64,000 nucleotides of DNA from an uncultured Verrucomicrobiota bacterium (GTDB taxonomy: Bacteria > Verrucomicrobiota > Kiritimatiellia > Kiritimatiellales > Tichowtungiaceae), in the NCBI GenBank assembly GCA_903826865.1, contig CAIKGD010000048.1:62001-126000 (forward strand). Reading direction: 5' to 3'. Positions 8,623 to 50,542 of the stretch are shown piece by piece. The notes below the pieces were generated by a model. That model was given only the letters and a program-made list of their open reading frames with translations, was not told where the DNA came from and searched no databases. The first letter of the stretch is position 1; each line of letters opens with the position of its first letter. The translations under genes and the position numbers were made by a program.

Positions 8623-9595
8623 CTAGTTCGCGAATCTGCGCGACATCTTTTGCGATTTGCGCGATCAGCGTCTCTTTGGAAGGGAAAGGCTGAACGTCGC
8701 GAAGTTTTTTGACCAGACAGACTTCGATCTGCTGTCCGTAAAGGTTGCCGTCGAAATCCAGCAGATAGGCTTCGATCACCGGGTCTGGATCCTTAAAGGT
8801 TTTCCGTTCGCCGATGAAGACGGCGCTGGGAAACAGTTTAGAGTTCAGAGCTTTCGGTTCAGAGTTTTCTGAATTTGAACCCTGAACTTCGAACTCTGAA
8901 TTTTGAACTCGCGTATACGCGGCATAGACGCCGGGAGCGGGGATCAGTTCGTTTTCAGGGTCAACGTTGGCTGTGGGGAAACCGAGTCCGTGTCCGATGC
9001 CGCGGCCTTTGACGACGGTGCCGAAAATACAAAAGGGGCGGCCCAGCATCTGTTCGGCGAGCGGGATGTTGCCGTCGCGCACGGCCTGCCGGATGTGGGT
9101 GCTGGAGATTTTTTCTTCGTCGTAAAGAACCGGCTGCACGGCGGTGGCGGTGATGCCGTGTCCGGCGCAGAGGTTTTTTAAAGCCGGGAATTTTCCGCGC
9201 GCTTTGTAACCGAAGGACCAGTCGGTGCCGCAGACGACGCCGCAGAGGGTCGGCAGTTTTTTCCAAAGGCTGGAAAGGAACTGTTCCGGCTCTGTGTGCG
9301 CGAAAGATTTGTCGAACGGAATAGCGATAACGCCGTGTACGCCGAGTGCTTCGAACTGCCGCAGGCGGCAGGTCTCCGCGCTGATAAGCGGCGGCGCGGT
9401 TTTCGGGCTGAGGACTTTGGCGGGGTGCGGATTGAAAGTGAAGACCCACGCTTCGCCGCCGCGCGCTCCGGCTTGCTCGACGGCGGTGGCGATGACTTTC
9501 CGGTGACCGATGTGTACTCCATCGAAACATCCCATCGCGAGGACAATGGGTTTGTCGGTTTGCGGAATCTCTTCGAGGTTTCTAACGTGAAGCAT
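8594..9595 (-). CDS. ribF: bifunctional riboflavin kinase/FAD synthetase
   Basis: LAMGCFDGVHIGHRKVI, VVCGTDWSFGYKARG, GRGIGHGLGFPTANV, GVYAAYT...SAVFIGERKTF. Confidence 0.95.
   Translation of the reverse strand: MLHVRNLEEIPQTDKPIVLAMGCFDGVHIGHRKVIATAVEQAGARGGEAWVFTFNPHPAKVLSPKTAPPLISAETCRLRQFEALGVHGVIAIPFDKSFAHTEPEQFLSSLWKKLPTLCGVVCGTDWSFGYKARGKFPALKNLCAGHGITATAVQPVLYDEEKISSTHIRQAVRDGNIPLAEQMLGRPFCIFGTVVKGRGIGHGLGFPTANVDPENELIPAPGVYAAYTRVQNSEFEVQGSNSENSEPKALNSKLFPSAVFIGERKTFKDPDPVIEAYLLDFDGNLYGQQIEVCLVKKLRDVQPFPSKETLIAQIAKDVAQIRELVRGRKSTPR
8835..8910. repeat. heptad-periodic inverted repeat inside ribF
   Basis: GTTTAGA GTTCAGA GCTTTCG GTTCAGA GTTTTCT ... TTTGAAC CCTGAAC TTCGAAC TCTGAAT TTTGAAC. 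Confidence 0.75.
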
Positions 9596-17152: not shown

Positions 17153-17258
17153 TGCGTACGACGTATTGCGTACTGCGTATCGCGTAACAGTCGTATTTCC
17201 GGACTTCGGGAAGTTCCGTGCTTTTGTGCAATACGCAGTACCCGTTACGGATTACGTT
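17153..17258. repeat. heptad-periodic inverted-repeat element between accA and folB
   Basis: ACGTATT GCGTACT GCGTATC GCGTAAC; opposite arm reverse-complements to ACGTAAT CCGTAAC GGGTACT GCGTATT. Confidence 0.75.
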
Positions 17259-44362: not shown

Positions 44363-45493
44363 TCAGCTGTTCAGCGCCTCCCGGATATCATTTTCGTAAA
44401 GGTGCGGTTCCAGCAGGAAGGAGTCGTGGCCTTTATTTGAATGTACGGTGACATGCTTGACCGGAACGCAGCCTTCTTCGAGCTTTTTCCGGTAGTATTC
44501 CTGTTCTTCAGGATAGAAGCAGTAGTCGTCGTCGATGGTGAAAATCAGATAGTGCTGGTTTTTGCAGTGCTTGAACAAGGTGGCGTAATCCGGCGCGCCG
44601 GTATCGCGCAGCAGGTGGTAATCCGACCAGGCGGCGATGATCTGCAGATAGGTGTTGGCATCGAAACGGCGCACGAGTTTGCGACCCTGATGCAGGATGT
44701 AGGATTCGAGCGGCGTGCGGACTTTGTACCACGAAAACTCATCATATTCCTGCTCCCAGCGGTTGTGGGCGCGCTCCTCGATGAAGTCGAGTGATACATA
44801 AGTTTTGTGCGAAATCATCCGGGCCAGTGCGAGCCCGCGCGCGGGCGGTTTGCCGTCGTAGTAGTCACCGTTGCGGAAGTTCGGATCGTTTTCGATGGCC
44901 AGAATCTGCTCAATGTTGTGGGCACGGATCAGTGTGGTCGGTTCAATGCCGCAGGCAATGGCGATAATGCGATCCGTGAGTTGCGGGTATCGTGCGGCCA
45001 GATTGGCGGTGAGCATGCCGCCGAGCGATGCGCCGAGGATGGCGTGCAGCTTTTTAATACCAAGGTGCGCAAGAAGCGGAAGTTGTGAATCTACAATATC
45101 GCTGAAGTGAATATGGGGGAAGCTGCCGCCGTAGGGCTTGCCGGTGGCGGGATTGATCGAGGACGGTCCGGTACTGCCGTAGCATCCGCCGAAATAGTTA
45201 ACGCAGATTACAAAAAAGCGGCTGGTATCAATTATTTTTTCCGGGCCGATGAAGTCGCTCCACCAGCCGGTGTGACACTCGGGGTTCCATTTTTCGCCGA
45301 CGCCGGGTACGGCAGGATTTAAGCCGGCGGCGTGTTGTGAGCCGGAAAGCGCGTGAAACAGCAGAATGGCGTTGTCGCACTTTTCATTGAGTGCGCCATA
45401 CGTTTCATACGCCAGTGTAACGGGGCCGAAGCTGATTCCGCTCCGCAGCGTTAACGTGTCGTAAGTGAAGAACTGTGTTTCAACGTTTTTCAT
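44363..45493 (-). CDS. metX: homoserine O-acetyltransferase
   Basis: LAYETYGALN, LLFHALSGSQHAAG, ILGASLGGMLTANLAARYP, NKGHDSFLLE. Confidence 0.93.
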   Translation of the reverse strand: MKNVETQFFTYDTLTLRSGISFGPVTLAYETYGALNEKCDNAILLFHALSGSQHAAGLNPAVPGVGEKWNPECHTGWWSDFIGPEKIIDTSRFFVICVNYFGGCYGSTGPSSINPATGKPYGGSFPHIHFSDIVDSQLPLLAHLGIKKLHAILGASLGGMLTANLAARYPQLTDRIIAIACGIEPTTLIRAHNIEQILAIENDPNFRNGDYYDGKPPARGLALARMISHKTYVSLDFIEERAHNRWEQEYDEFSWYKVRTPLESYILHQGRKLVRRFDANTYLQIIAAWSDYHLLRDTGAPDYATLFKHCKNQHYLIFTIDDDYCFYPEEQEYYRKKLEEGCVPVKHVTVHSNKGHDSFLLEPHLYENDIREALNS

Positions 45494-45507: not shown

Positions 45508-45579
45508 TATGAACTATGAACGATGAACTATGGAAGCGGTATTTTCACCGAATCCACAGTCATCATTCATAATTCATAG
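45508..45579. repeat. heptad-periodic inverted-repeat element between metX and metY
   Basis: TATGAAC TATGAAC GATGAAC TATGG; other arm reverse-complements to CTATGAA TTATGAA TGATGAC TGTGG. Confidence 0.75.
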
Positions 45580-45588
45580 CGCATCTTC

Positions 45589-46863
45589 CTATTTTAACGC
45601 CTGCTTGAGGTCGGCAAGAATGTCGTCGATGTGCTCAAGCCCGACCGATAGACGGACGAGACCGGGCGTGATGCCGCCTGCCGCCTGCTGTTCGGGAGTA
45701 AGCTGCGAGTGCGTCGTGGTGGCCGGATGAATCGCCAGACTCTTTGCGTCGCCGACGTTGGCGAGGTGCGAAAAAATCTTAAGCTTTTCAATGAATTTTT
45801 TGCCGGCTTTTTCGCCGCCTTTGACTTCAAAGACCACCGTTGCGCCGAATCCGTTTTTAAACAGTTTCTTTGCGATCTTATACGACGGATGGCTTTCGAG
45901 TCCCGGGAAGCGGACCCATTCGACTTCGGCCTGTTTTTCCAGAAACTTCGCAACAGCCAGCGCGTTTTCGCCGTGGCGCTCCATGCGCAGAGCCAGCGTC
46001 TCAATGCCTTGCAGGAACTGCCACGCGTTATCGGGCGAAAGGCAGGCGCCGAGGTTGCGCAGCGGAACCAGCCTCATCCTCAGGATGTAGGCGAGCGGAG
46101 CCAGTGAGGGCGGCAGGTCGTGCGCGTAGCGGATGCCGTGATAGCTGTCGTCCGGCTCGGAAAGCAGAGGATGTTTGCCGGCTGCCCAGTTGAATTTGCC
46201 GGAGTCCACCACGATGCCGCCGATGCCGTTGCCGTGTCCGCCCAGCCATTTGGTGAGCGAATGCACAACAATATCCGCGCCGTGTTCAATCGGGCGCAGC
46301 AGATGCGGCGTGGTGAAAGTGCTGTCCACGATCAGCGGCAGACCGTTGGCGTGCGCGATTTTCGCGATCGCTTCAATATCTGACACGTCGAGCGACGGAT
46401 TGCCGATGGTTTCGGTGTAGAGCGCCTTCGTTTTTTTCGTAATTGCTTTGGCGAAGTTTTGCGGATCGGACGGATCGACAAACTTCACGGTAATGCCCAG
46501 CTGCGGCAGGATATTGTTGAACTGCGTGTAAGTTCCGCCGTAGAGGTTGCTCGACGATACAATCTCATCGCCCGCCTGTGCGAGATTGATGACGCTGTAG
46601 AAGATGGCGGCCGTGCCGGACGCCAGCGCCAGAGCGCCGGCTCCGCCTTCGAGCGCCGCGACGCGCTGTTCGAGCACATCGTTCGTCGGGTTCATCAGCC
46701 GCGTATAAATGTTGCCCAGCTCTTTAAGGCCGAACAAGTTTGCGGCGTGCTCGGTGTCCCGGAAGACATAAGCACTGGTTCTGTAGACCGGAACCGCACA
46801 GCTGCCTGTTGAGTCCGGGGAGTAGCCGGCATGAAGCGCCAGCGTTTCGGTGTTCTTACTCAT
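45589..46863 (-). CDS. metY: O-acetylhomoserine aminocarboxypropyltransferase/cysteine synthase
   Basis: TLALHAGYSPDSTGSCAVPVYRTSAYVF, YTRLMNPTNDVLEQRVAALEGG, VDSTFTTPHLLRPIEHGADIVVHSLTKWLGGHG. Confidence 0.94.
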   Translation of the reverse strand: MSKNTETLALHAGYSPDSTGSCAVPVYRTSAYVFRDTEHAANLFGLKELGNIYTRLMNPTNDVLEQRVAALEGGAGALALASGTAAIFYSVINLAQAGDEIVSSSNLYGGTYTQFNNILPQLGITVKFVDPSDPQNFAKAITKKTKALYTETIGNPSLDVSDIEAIAKIAHANGLPLIVDSTFTTPHLLRPIEHGADIVVHSLTKWLGGHGNGIGGIVVDSGKFNWAAGKHPLLSEPDDSYHGIRYAHDLPPSLAPLAYILRMRLVPLRNLGACLSPDNAWQFLQGIETLALRMERHGENALAVAKFLEKQAEVEWVRFPGLESHPSYKIAKKLFKNGFGATVVFEVKGGEKAGKKFIEKLKIFSHLANVGDAKSLAIHPATTTHSQLTPEQQAAGGITPGLVRLSVGLEHIDDILADLKQALK

Positions 46864-47451: not shown

Positions 47452-48738
47452 ATGAAAGAAGTAAAAATAGGCATTCTGGGGTTCGGCACGGTCGGTGCGG
47501 GCGTGGTTGAGGGTATCCTCAAAAACGGCGAACTGATGGCGCAGCGCACCGGTATTTTTCCGAAGATCGGGAAAATCGCCGACCTCGACATTAAAAGCGA
47601 CCGCGGCGTCAAAGTGGATAAAGCCATTCTGACGACCGACGCGCTTTCTGTGATCAACGATCCGGAAATTGATGTGATCGTCGAACTGATCGGCGGCGTC
47701 AGGATCGCCAGGGATTTTGTGCTGCGAGCCTTGGAGAACGGCAAACCGGTGGTAACCGCTAATAAAGCACTGCTGGCCGAGGCCGGCCGCGAACTGTTTG
47801 AAGCCTCCGCAAAAAGCGGCGCAGGACTCTATTTCGAGGCCAGCGTCGGCGGCGGCATTCCGGTGCTCCGCGCTCTGCGCGACGGGCTGGTCGGCAACCG
47901 GATTAAAAGCATGTACGGCATTTTGAACGGAACCTGCAATTACATCCTGACCCGCATGGAGCGCGAAGGACTCGATTTTGACGCGGTGCTGGCCGACGCC
48001 CAGAAGCTCGGCTATGCCGAAACGCCGCCGGATCTGGATATTGACGGTATCGATACCGCGCACAAAGCGGTGGTGTTGGCTTCGCTGGCGTACGGCGCGC
48101 CGGTTTCGATGGATGCGTTCACGATTGAAGGCATCCGCGGACTGTCGCACCGCGAAATTGAATATGCCGGTGAACTGGGCTACCGCATAAAACTGCTGGC
48201 GGCCATTCGCGAAGTGAACGGCGAAATCGAAATGCGCGTGGAACCTTCACTGGTGCCGAAGAAGCACCTGCTGGCGTCGGTGCACGATGCGTACAACGCG
48301 GTTTTTATCGAAGGCGATGTGGTTGGCAGCACGCTCTATTACGGGCGCGGCGCAGGCCGTCTGCCGACCGCCAGTGCGGTGATCGGCGACATCATGGAAG
48401 CAGCGGCGGGCAAAGGCGGATGCAGCGCATGGCTGCTGAACCATAAAGTGCTGCCGGTGTGCGACGCGAAGAATATTTCAATTCGCTGTTATCTGCGGTT
48501 GTCGCTGAAGGATCAGCCGGACGTGATCGCTCAGGTCGCGCATGTGCTCGGCAAAAACAAGATCAGCATCGCGTCGATGATTCAAAAAGAGCAAAACGCC
48601 GGCGAACAGGTGCCGGTGGTGTTTCTGACCCACAAGGCGCTGGAAAAGAATTATGCCGTCGCGATGGAAGAAATTGAAGCGCTGGATGTCGTAGACGGCA
48701 AGCCTGTTCGCATGGCAATCGAGGACTTTGAGGGATAA
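47452..48738 (+). CDS. hom: homoserine dehydrogenase
   Basis: IGILGFGTVGAGVVEGI, VVTANKALLAEAG, GILNGTCNYILTRM, C-terminal ACT domain. Confidence 0.95.
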   Translation: MKEVKIGILGFGTVGAGVVEGILKNGELMAQRTGIFPKIGKIADLDIKSDRGVKVDKAILTTDALSVINDPEIDVIVELIGGVRIARDFVLRALENGKPVVTANKALLAEAGRELFEASAKSGAGLYFEASVGGGIPVLRALRDGLVGNRIKSMYGILNGTCNYILTRMEREGLDFDAVLADAQKLGYAETPPDLDIDGIDTAHKAVVLASLAYGAPVSMDAFTIEGIRGLSHREIEYAGELGYRIKLLAAIREVNGEIEMRVEPSLVPKKHLLASVHDAYNAVFIEGDVVGSTLYYGRGAGRLPTASAVIGDIMEAAAGKGGCSAWLLNHKVLPVCDAKNISIRCYLRLSLKDQPDVIAQVAHVLGKNKISIASMIQKEQNAGEQVPVVFLTHKALEKNYAVAMEEIEALDVVDGKPVRMAIEDFEG

Positions 48739-48741
48739 TGG

Positions 48742-48771
48742 AACCGCGAATAGACGCGAATGCACACGAAT
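48742..48771 (+). repeat. left terminal inverted repeat of the GxxExxY cassette
   Basis: AACCGCGAATAGACGCGAATGCACACGAAT, 25/30 match to the reverse complement of 49145-49174. Confidence 0.75.
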
Positions 48772-49155
48772 ATCAAGTTGCAAGAGCAGGAGATAGTTTA
48801 TCAGATTGCCGGATGTGCAATGGAAGTCCTCAATGTGATCGGTCACGGACTGCGGGAAAAAACCTATGAACGGGCGCTTTGCCGGGAATTCGATCTTCAG
48901 GGAATAAAATATTCACAGCAGACTGTTTTCCCGGTTGAATACAAAGGGGAAATGATAGATGAGTATATTCCGGATCTCATAGTTGAGGGTCGGATTGTTA
49001 TCGACGCAAAAACAATTGATGGTATCGGGAAAAACGAGGTTGGGCAGATGCTCAACTATCTGAAGATCATAAAGTTGAATGTAGGTTTGATTATAAATTT
49101 TAAAAATCCGAAGTTGGAGTGGAAGCGGGTTCTGCTGAGTGAACATTCGCGTTAA
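48760..49155 (+). CDS. GxxExxY protein (PD-(D/E)XK nuclease-like)
   Basis: GHGLREKTYERALCREF (GxxExxY), YIPDLIVEGRIVIDAKTID D...DAK pattern. Confidence 0.9.
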   Translation: MHTNIKLQEQEIVYQIAGCAMEVLNVIGHGLREKTYERALCREFDLQGIKYSQQTVFPVEYKGEMIDEYIPDLIVEGRIVIDAKTIDGIGKNEVGQMLNYLKIIKLNVGLIINFKNPKLEWKRVLLSEHSR

Positions 49156-49174
49156 TTCGTGTCCATTCGCGGTT
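49145..49174 (-). repeat. right terminal inverted repeat of the GxxExxY cassette
   Basis: ATTCGCGTTAATTCGTGTCCATTCGCGGTT. Confidence 0.75.
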
Positions 49175-49189
49175 GAATTGAGGTCGAAA

Positions 49190-50542
49190 ATGAAAGTAGT
49201 GAAATTCGGCGGAACATCCGTCGCCAATGCAGAACAGATTTCGAAGATCATTAAAATTGTCACTGCCGACGCCGACCGCCGCATCGTGGTGGTTTCCGCG
49301 CCGGGTAAGCGGGACAAAGCCGACACCAAGGTCACCGACCTGCTGATCGCGCTGGCCAACACCGTGATCGCCGGAAAAAACTTCGAGGCCGATCTGATGG
49401 CGGTGGTAAACCGCTACGCCGAAATCCAGCGCGACCTGAAACTGCCGGAAGCGGTGACCGGAACCATCGAAGCCGATTTGCGCGGACGCATTAAAGGCCG
49501 CGGCAAAAACGACGCCCAGTTCATGGACGCGATGAAAGCCGCCGGCGAAGACTGCGCCGCCCGCGTAATCGCCGAAGCTTTTACCAAGGCCGGATTCCCG
49601 GCTAAATATGTCAATCCCGGCGATGCGGGCATGCTGTTGAGCGATGACTTTGGCAACGCGCAGGTGCTCGACGAGTCGTATGCGAAACTGGCCGCACTGA
49701 AAAACGTCAAAGAAATCGTGATTTTTCCCGGTTTCTTCGGCGTCACCAAAGGCGGTGACGTGGCGACTTTCCCTCGCGGCGGATCGGATATCACCGGCGC
49801 GATTCTCGCGGCGGCGGTCAAAGCCGATGTCTATGAAAATTTCACCGACGTGGATTCCGTCTGTTCGATGGATCCGCGCATCATTGAAAATCCGCCCGCC
49901 ATTGACTGCATGACTTACCGCGAAATGCGCGAACTTTCCTATGCCGGGTTCGGCGTTTTTCACGACGAGGCGATTGTTCCCGCCGTTCGCGCCAACATTC
50001 CGATCTGCATCAAGAATACCAATAATCCGGCGGCTCCCGGCACGATGGTTGTGCCGAAGCGCGCGCCCGGTGAGCGGACGGTGGTTGGTATTTCGAGCGC
50101 GCCCGGTTTCTGCGCCATCTACATTGATAAATATATGATGAACCGCGAAATCGGTTTCGGCCGCCGCCTGCTCCAGATTCTGGAAGACGAAAAAATATCT
50201 TTCGAACACACGCCGTCAGGGATTGATAATATTTCCGCGATTCTCTCTTCGGCCAATCTGACTCCGGCTAAACAGGAAAAGGTTGTGGCCCGCATCAAAA
50301 CTGAGCTGAAACCCGATGCGGTGCTGGTTGAACACGGACTGGCGCTGATTATGGTTGTAGGCGAAGGGATGCACTATACGCCCGGTATGGCGGCTAAAGC
50401 CACGCAGGCCATGTCCGCCGCCGGCGTGAACCTGGAAATGATCAATCAGGGCGCGTCCGAAATCAGCATGATGTTCGCCGTCAAAAACGACGACCGTGAA
50501 AAAGCTCTTCGCGCTCTCGGCAAAGCATTTTTCGGGATTTAA
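49190..50542 (+). CDS. lysC: aspartate kinase
   Basis: MKVVKFGGTSVANAEQ, PGFFGVTKGGDVATFPRGGSDITGAILAAAVKAD, C-terminal ACT domains. Confidence 0.94.
   Translation: MKVVKFGGTSVANAEQISKIIKIVTADADRRIVVVSAPGKRDKADTKVTDLLIALANTVIAGKNFEADLMAVVNRYAEIQRDLKLPEAVTGTIEADLRGRIKGRGKNDAQFMDAMKAAGEDCAARVIAEAFTKAGFPAKYVNPGDAGMLLSDDFGNAQVLDESYAKLAALKNVKEIVIFPGFFGVTKGGDVATFPRGGSDITGAILAAAVKADVYENFTDVDSVCSMDPRIIENPPAIDCMTYREMRELSYAGFGVFHDEAIVPAVRANIPICIKNTNNPAAPGTMVVPKRAPGERTVVGISSAPGFCAIYIDKYMMNREIGFGRRLLQILEDEKISFEHTPSGIDNISAILSSANLTPAKQEKVVARIKTELKPDAVLVEHGLALIMVVGEGMHYTPGMAAKATQAMSAAGVNLEMINQGASEISMMFAVKNDDREKALRALGKAFFGI

Follow-up and report, generated by a model that had tools for sequence, protein, structure and literature searches.

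A GxxExxY nuclease gene between inverted arrays of a seven-base-pair word: evidence for a family of small, probably mobile elements

The proteins of the GxxExxY family, which are common in environmental bacteria and present in some archaea, are uncharacterised. In a window of 64,000 nucleotides from an uncultured bacterium of the Verrucomicrobiota (the whole stretch of DNA that was analysed, from whose first letter all window coordinates are counted), one such gene is found between the genes for homoserine dehydrogenase (hom) and aspartate kinase (lysC), with its start and stop codons embedded in a pair of inverted repeats. This locus raises the question of what the repeats are for: do they delimit a mobile element, do they control a resident gene, or do they act in the transcript? 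And if the unit is mobile, is the encoded protein its mover or its passenger?

The location between hom and lysC, given in the first-pass annotation, was confirmed: the upstream neighbour hom spans positions 47452–48738 of the forward strand, and the downstream neighbour lysC, which is named from that annotation and from its conservation beside hom, spans positions 49190–50542 of the same strand, so that both are co-directional with the gene between them. The whole cassette, counted from array to array, measures 433 bp (48742–49174, forward strand); its boundaries are inferred from a sister cassette, for which an empty site exists, and from further copies, whose homology across contexts reaches no further than the outer ends of the arrays. 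The left array (48742–48771, forward strand) starts with an AACC end and continues in 10-nt steps with the words CGCGAAT (48745–48751), CGCGAAT (48755–48761) and CACGAAT (48765–48771). The right array (49145–49174) lies inverted on the reverse strand and consists of ATTCGCG (49145–49151), ATTCGTG (49155–49161) and ATTCGCG (49165–49171), followed by a GGTT end. The arms are identical at 25 of 30 positions, in agreement with the imperfect 30-nt inverted repeats of 10-nt period described before. The GxxExxY gene itself (48760–49155, forward strand; 131 amino acids) has its ATG (48760) within the left array and its TAA (49153–49155) within the right one. While this packing is exact in the window, it is not so in every copy of related genomes: in 54 intact copies, the stop codons cluster around the inner boundary of the right array, lying inside or touching it in 20 and at most 3 nt outside in 16 more.

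The nuclease fold ascribed to this ORF is borne out both by family matches and by a structural model. The ORF matches TIGR04256 (E=3e-37; 127 bits against a curated cut-off of 35 bits) and PF13366 PDDEXK_3 (E=3e-35; 122 bits against a curated cut-off of 22 bits); PDDEXK_3/GxxExxY profiles are the only ones that match it, and no known transposase domain was found there. The motif G-x-x-E-x-x-Y corresponds to G30-x-x-E33-x-x-Y36, and the conserved residues comprise E33, D72, D82 (E in most relatives), K84, Q96 and Y100, with D72, D82, K84 and Q96 representing an intact PD-(D/E)XK active site. The AlphaFold2 model (pLDDT 94.6, pTM 0.86) adopts a PD-(D/E)XK fold, and the closest solved folds are SSO0001/Cas4, LHK-Exo and MGME1, all of them PD-(D/E)XK proteins whose substrates are DNA ends or single strands. 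The window protein is, by prediction, an intact Cas4/RecB-like PD-(D/E)XK nuclease; an HUH (Y1) transposase domain was found neither in profile searches nor in the fold comparison. A likeness to T7 endonuclease I in sequence (E=0.17, a lead only) is unsupported by the fold ranking and was set aside. As the window protein has no match in PADLOC, where a relative shows a weak resemblance to Cas4 (E=0.011), its filing as a defence system was also dropped. Where dN/dS could be measured, it amounts to 0.05–0.12, values that indicate purifying selection on the GxxExxY gene.

To judge how far the repeats are a property of this gene, we used a repeat score, i.e. the local alignment of the upstream flank with the reverse complement of the downstream flank. 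The window gene scores 21, a value reached by 0.36% of 832 other ORFs of its own genome. Relatives of the window protein occur in 37 of 40 related genomes, with up to 14 per genome, and 67 of the 72 GxxExxY loci in related genomes score at least 14, compared to 5.9% of the 832 own-genome ORFs. Likewise, in an independent set of 80 GxxExxY genes from another clade, spread over more than 15 phyla and with two archaea among them, which was picked by protein pattern with the flanks disregarded, 53 of the 74 usable loci score at least 18; in shifted controls, 384 windows displaced within the loci of these same 74, the proportion is 1.8%. The association of flanking repeats with other GxxExxY genes, which had been set beforehand as a test, thus holds at nearly all loci tested, and the repeats belong to the gene family rather than to the window genome. 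A survey of inverted repeats over 464 kb of the own genome with ungapped scoring gave 12 against 2 in mirror controls at score 16, but was too insensitive for this result to be a count of elements. By a rough call from ORF lengths that omits unclear cases, 56 GxxExxY cassettes are co-directional with both neighbours and 2 are opposed to both.

On closer view, a short word makes up the flanking repeats, arrayed mostly in 10-nt or 9-nt steps and inverted between the two ends. The words include CGCGAAT, as in the window, CACGGAT, CACTAAT, CACAGAG, GCAAAG, ACAGGAT and others, and the outer ends often read (A)ACC...GGT(T). The usual array of a gene-bearing element has three 7-bp words spaced 9–10 bp apart, about one turn of DNA, and such words at helical spacing resemble an array that proteins might bind. 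For gene-less copies in one related genome (G025), the arms agree at 0.79–1.0 of the word positions versus 0.07–0.21 at the three spacer positions; in GxxExxY cassettes of period 10, agreement between the arms is 0.69–0.96 in the word phases, as against 0.22 and 0.37 in the two spacer phases that vary most freely. Furthermore, mismatches in the sense strand are G.U in 141 and A.C in 133 cases (p=0.67), while the tRNAs of these genomes, as a control for the wobble test, give 18 and 0. Because G.U and A.C are equally frequent where tRNAs give 18:0, the constraint appears to act on words in DNA and not on RNA pairing. The repeat hairpin that had been proposed fits less well than inverted arrays of a 7-nt word, since the spacers are unpaired and wobble pairs give no sign of selection at the RNA level. 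The gene-less CACTAAT pairs of G025 (L305–L320) have unrelated loops, and their spacers agree at about 0.16, below the expectation from base composition.

These observations bear directly on the idea of an RNA-level element akin to the intervening sequence (IVS) of 23S rRNA, in which pairing of the repeats takes place in the transcript, RNase III excises the gene from the operon mRNA and any mobility proceeds via RNA. The resemblance in outline is close, as the IVS of Coxiella burnetii measures 428 nt against the 433 bp of the cassette and likewise has inverted ends and one small ORF, S23p (PMC4990558); moreover, the cassettes lie co-directionally between host genes, and S23-like genes show the same layout. 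Yet the unpaired spacers and the symmetry of the wobble test against its tRNA control led us to reject an RNA stem, an Rfam search gave no match of note, and we consider the RNA-level element highly improbable.

If the arrays delimit a unit in DNA, close copies at unrelated sites should be alike only from array to array, and this is what we found. Among cassettes with at least 68% protein identity, 80 pairs differ in context and 30 share it; in the former, the outer limits of the arrays mark where DNA homology begins and ends, mostly to within a few nucleotides. For instance, the loci L163, L143 and L033 occupy three unrelated sites in three species at 91–95% protein identity, and the homology of L163 to the other two spans from ACCACC to GGTGGT. 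Homology is limited to the arrays in a similar way in L158/L030/L165/L172, in L010/L012 and in L164/L171, the last being two copies in one genome with 84% identical DNA. Conversely, the cassette L017/L002 is missing from two close relatives (G008 and G005) with flanks of 90–91% identity, which at the empty site abut but for a single base. Filled and empty alleles differ by 470 nt, corresponding to the array-to-array unit and about 24 nt of flank, and due to these additional nucleotides the exact chemistry of insertion cannot be read from this site. At the empty site (L293 in G008, L294 in G005), the two host genes overlap (GTGA), whereas in the filled allele a stop codon of its own and a spacer precede the downstream ATG, so that the coupling of the two host genes differs between these states.

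The spacer between hom and lysC presents a comparable series. The window, G028 and G043 have a full cassette there, and G006 has one with an internal deletion that keeps both ends; a gene-less word pair is present in G008, G013, G010, G003 and others, while in G017, G033, G022 and G009 the spacer is 10–13 nt long or the genes overlap. Relatives that lack the gene between hom and lysC, the second test set beforehand, therefore exist, besides the empty L017/L002 site. The mobile cassette proposed in the first-pass annotation has thus survived both tests, with homology in unrelated contexts ending at the arrays, while its self-mobilisation is something that we infer. As far as sequence comparison can tell, arrays and gene form one unit that is found at unrelated sites and missing at orthologous ones, and mobility of this unit over evolutionary time appears well supported. 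Among 59 elements, no target-site duplication was found above chance, and among the genomes compared, neither a transposition event nor an insertion polymorphic within a species was observed. Movement seems to be rare, since many copies are vertically inherited and reside at a single site. Searches of phage records and of viral contigs gave no GxxExxY match, and carriage by phages was dropped as an explanation; plasmid records yielded only 8 matches, of which at least one (Bacteroides finegoldii, beside radA) looks chromosomal by its gene content.

This residence invites the converse interpretation that the gene belongs to the host, for example as a defence or repair nuclease, with the arrays as autoregulatory operators and scattered arrays as its regulon. 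The low dN/dS is in keeping with it, as are the arrays that indeed occur scattered and the same-site orthologues L150, L153, L155 and L168 from two families, which keep all 24 CACTAAT words despite strongly diverged synonymous sites and thereby indicate that resident copies are maintained. A regulated host gene would, however, not lead one to expect copies at unrelated sites that are homologous only from array to array, empty sites, arrays on both sides of the gene, or an internally deleted copy that retains both ends; together with the missing PADLOC match, this makes a resident gene improbable.

A single unit also predicts that arrays and gene are inherited together, and the two do correspond. 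Over 120 cassettes, protein identity correlates with array similarity (Mantel r=0.38, null SD 0.035), with none of 2000 permutations above 0.143, so that the word type goes with the GxxExxY protein clade, a correlation that partly stems from this co-inheritance. Some genomes additionally contain many gene-less copies of about 80 nt; in G025, these lie at about 17 unrelated sites with differing loops and outnumber the gene-bearing ones. CACTAAT array matches number 49–80 in the four genomes with a CACTAAT-type GxxExxY gene and have a median of 5 in the other 39 (p=0.0007), with GxxExxY loci incompletely sampled in this comparison. For CGCGAAT, the word of the window, the link between array number and window-clade GxxExxY is not clean: it was not upheld, as such arrays are also frequent in G013 and G003, which have no known CGCGAAT-type GxxExxY among their partly sampled loci. 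The own genome has about 15 further CGCGAAT sites, mostly single arrays starting with AACC. At its loci L052–L075, AACCGCGAATNNACGCGAAT arrays stand singly with no partner, and these may be remnants of one end or independent units. Gene-less inverted pairs with other 7-nt words are also present in the window, at 17155–17256 (about 100 bp, CGTATTG/CGTACTG type), 8838–8910 (about 70 bp, GTTCAGA type) and 45509–45580 (GAACTAT type, ATGAACTATGAACGATGAACTATG ... CATTCATAATTCATAG), the last of which lies in the gap between the ORFs 44363–45493 and 45589–46863.

GxxExxY genes are not the only ones between such arrays. The S23-like four-helix-bundle family TIGR02436 has 18 matches in the own genome (L034–L049), most of which are flanked by inverted arrays of tandem 7-nt words, usually with a word specific to the locus. 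The repeat score is at least 14 at 32 of 37 four-helix-bundle loci, and the word again follows the protein (r=0.64); a period of 7 nt dominates here, separating this family from GxxExxY with its 9–10-nt period. Furthermore, CGCGAAT arrays bracket a DUF2971 gene of 298 amino acids in the own genome (L057, G000:C7:149625-150558), with a TAA enclosed by the right array just like that of the window gene. Since four-helix-bundle proteins are not expected to be enzymes and their genes share the architecture, it does not have to be the encoded protein that mobilises the unit. Accordingly, the array pair alone might be the mobile part, with its movement due to some unrelated enzyme or to the replication and repair of the host, and with GxxExxY, DUF2971 and four-helix genes as occasional passengers. 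The bracketed DUF2971 gene, the surplus of gene-less copies in G025 and a layout common to two unrelated protein families would fit such an arrangement; by contrast, it would not require the word to track the GxxExxY clade across phyla and the four-helix clade as well, nor does it account for the period that separates the two protein families or for the strong purifying selection on the GxxExxY gene. We regard it as unlikely.

In our assessment, the unit in the window is probably one copy of a family of mobile elements whose nuclease recognises its own word array. A gene-bearing element would consist of an inverted array pair, usually of three 7-bp words, around a single GxxExxY gene, whose Cas4/RecB-like product might bind the word array of its own clade and cut or process the element ends. 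Host repair or replication could then complete the insertion without target duplication, and gene-less array pairs could move in trans. Insertion between co-directional genes might provide for expression from the host operon, which would account for the preferred orientation as well as for start and stop codons that lie so tightly against the arrays. While GxxExxY itself may thus be the mover, our main doubt concerns whether it is mobiliser or passenger, as other genes sit between the same arrays. More tentatively, we can envisage an undescribed class, in which a Cas4-like nuclease is combined with inverted, helically phased arrays of 7-bp words, word and enzyme changing together to produce many specificities, and in which S23-like four-helix bundles run the same scheme with 7-bp tandem words.

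For GxxExxY proteins, the sequence comparison offers a candidate role with defined substrates, namely the binding and processing of the word array that belongs to their own clade, and if the nuclease reads a clade-specific word, many natural DNA specificities would exist within a family of 130-residue proteins. The cassette family also ties together scattered tandem heptamers and decamers between genes, S23-like four-helix genes and the question of IVS-like mobility. No link between GxxExxY and repeats was found in the literature searched, 5.4 million papers of which two mention the family name and neither deals with repeats. Several known systems are reminiscent of the cassette in part. With the 23S rRNA IVS, it shares a length of about 430 bp, a small ORF, ends that are inverted over about 30 bp and a suspected mobility, and the four-helix-bundle cassettes of these genomes resemble the IVS in layout; yet it lies between hom and lysC without an rRNA match, encodes a nuclease in place of a four-helix bundle and has word arrays in 9–10-nt steps with no sign of a pairing constraint at the RNA level. 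RAYT proteins, which accompany REP/REPIN sequences, are HUH (Y1) enzymes, and their palindromes are tagged by GTAG/CGTC. The cassette differs from them in its PD-(D/E)XK fold and in 7-bp word arrays that vary with the protein clade. Nonetheless, both systems have scattered short inverted units, one gene flanked by the same units and gene-less copies that outnumber the gene (PMC3116915; PMC3733652), the latter in G025 and less cleanly for CGCGAAT. IS elements and MITEs share the terminal inverted repeats, the single gene and a deletion derivative with both ends, as at hom-lysC in G006, whereas the cassette has neither a DDE, HUH or recombinase domain nor a target-site duplication, and its ends are tandem words. 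Tandem 7-nt words between genes are found in many bacteria: those of cyanobacteria and Beggiatoaceae, such as TAACTGA, are direct repeats with no such gene partner (PMC4679880), while the heptamer arrays described here bracket four-helix-bundle genes in inverted pairs. Lastly, genes for PD-(D/E)XK homing endonucleases are small nuclease genes between host genes as well, but homing enzymes act on a single site, whose empty allele they cut, whereas close copies of the cassette occupy several unrelated sites and have self-contained inverted ends. IVS, REPIN/RAYT and heptamer repeats each share a part of these properties and none of them fits on the features tested; we place the cassette among the small inverted-repeat mobile elements, with a fair chance that it forms a class by itself.
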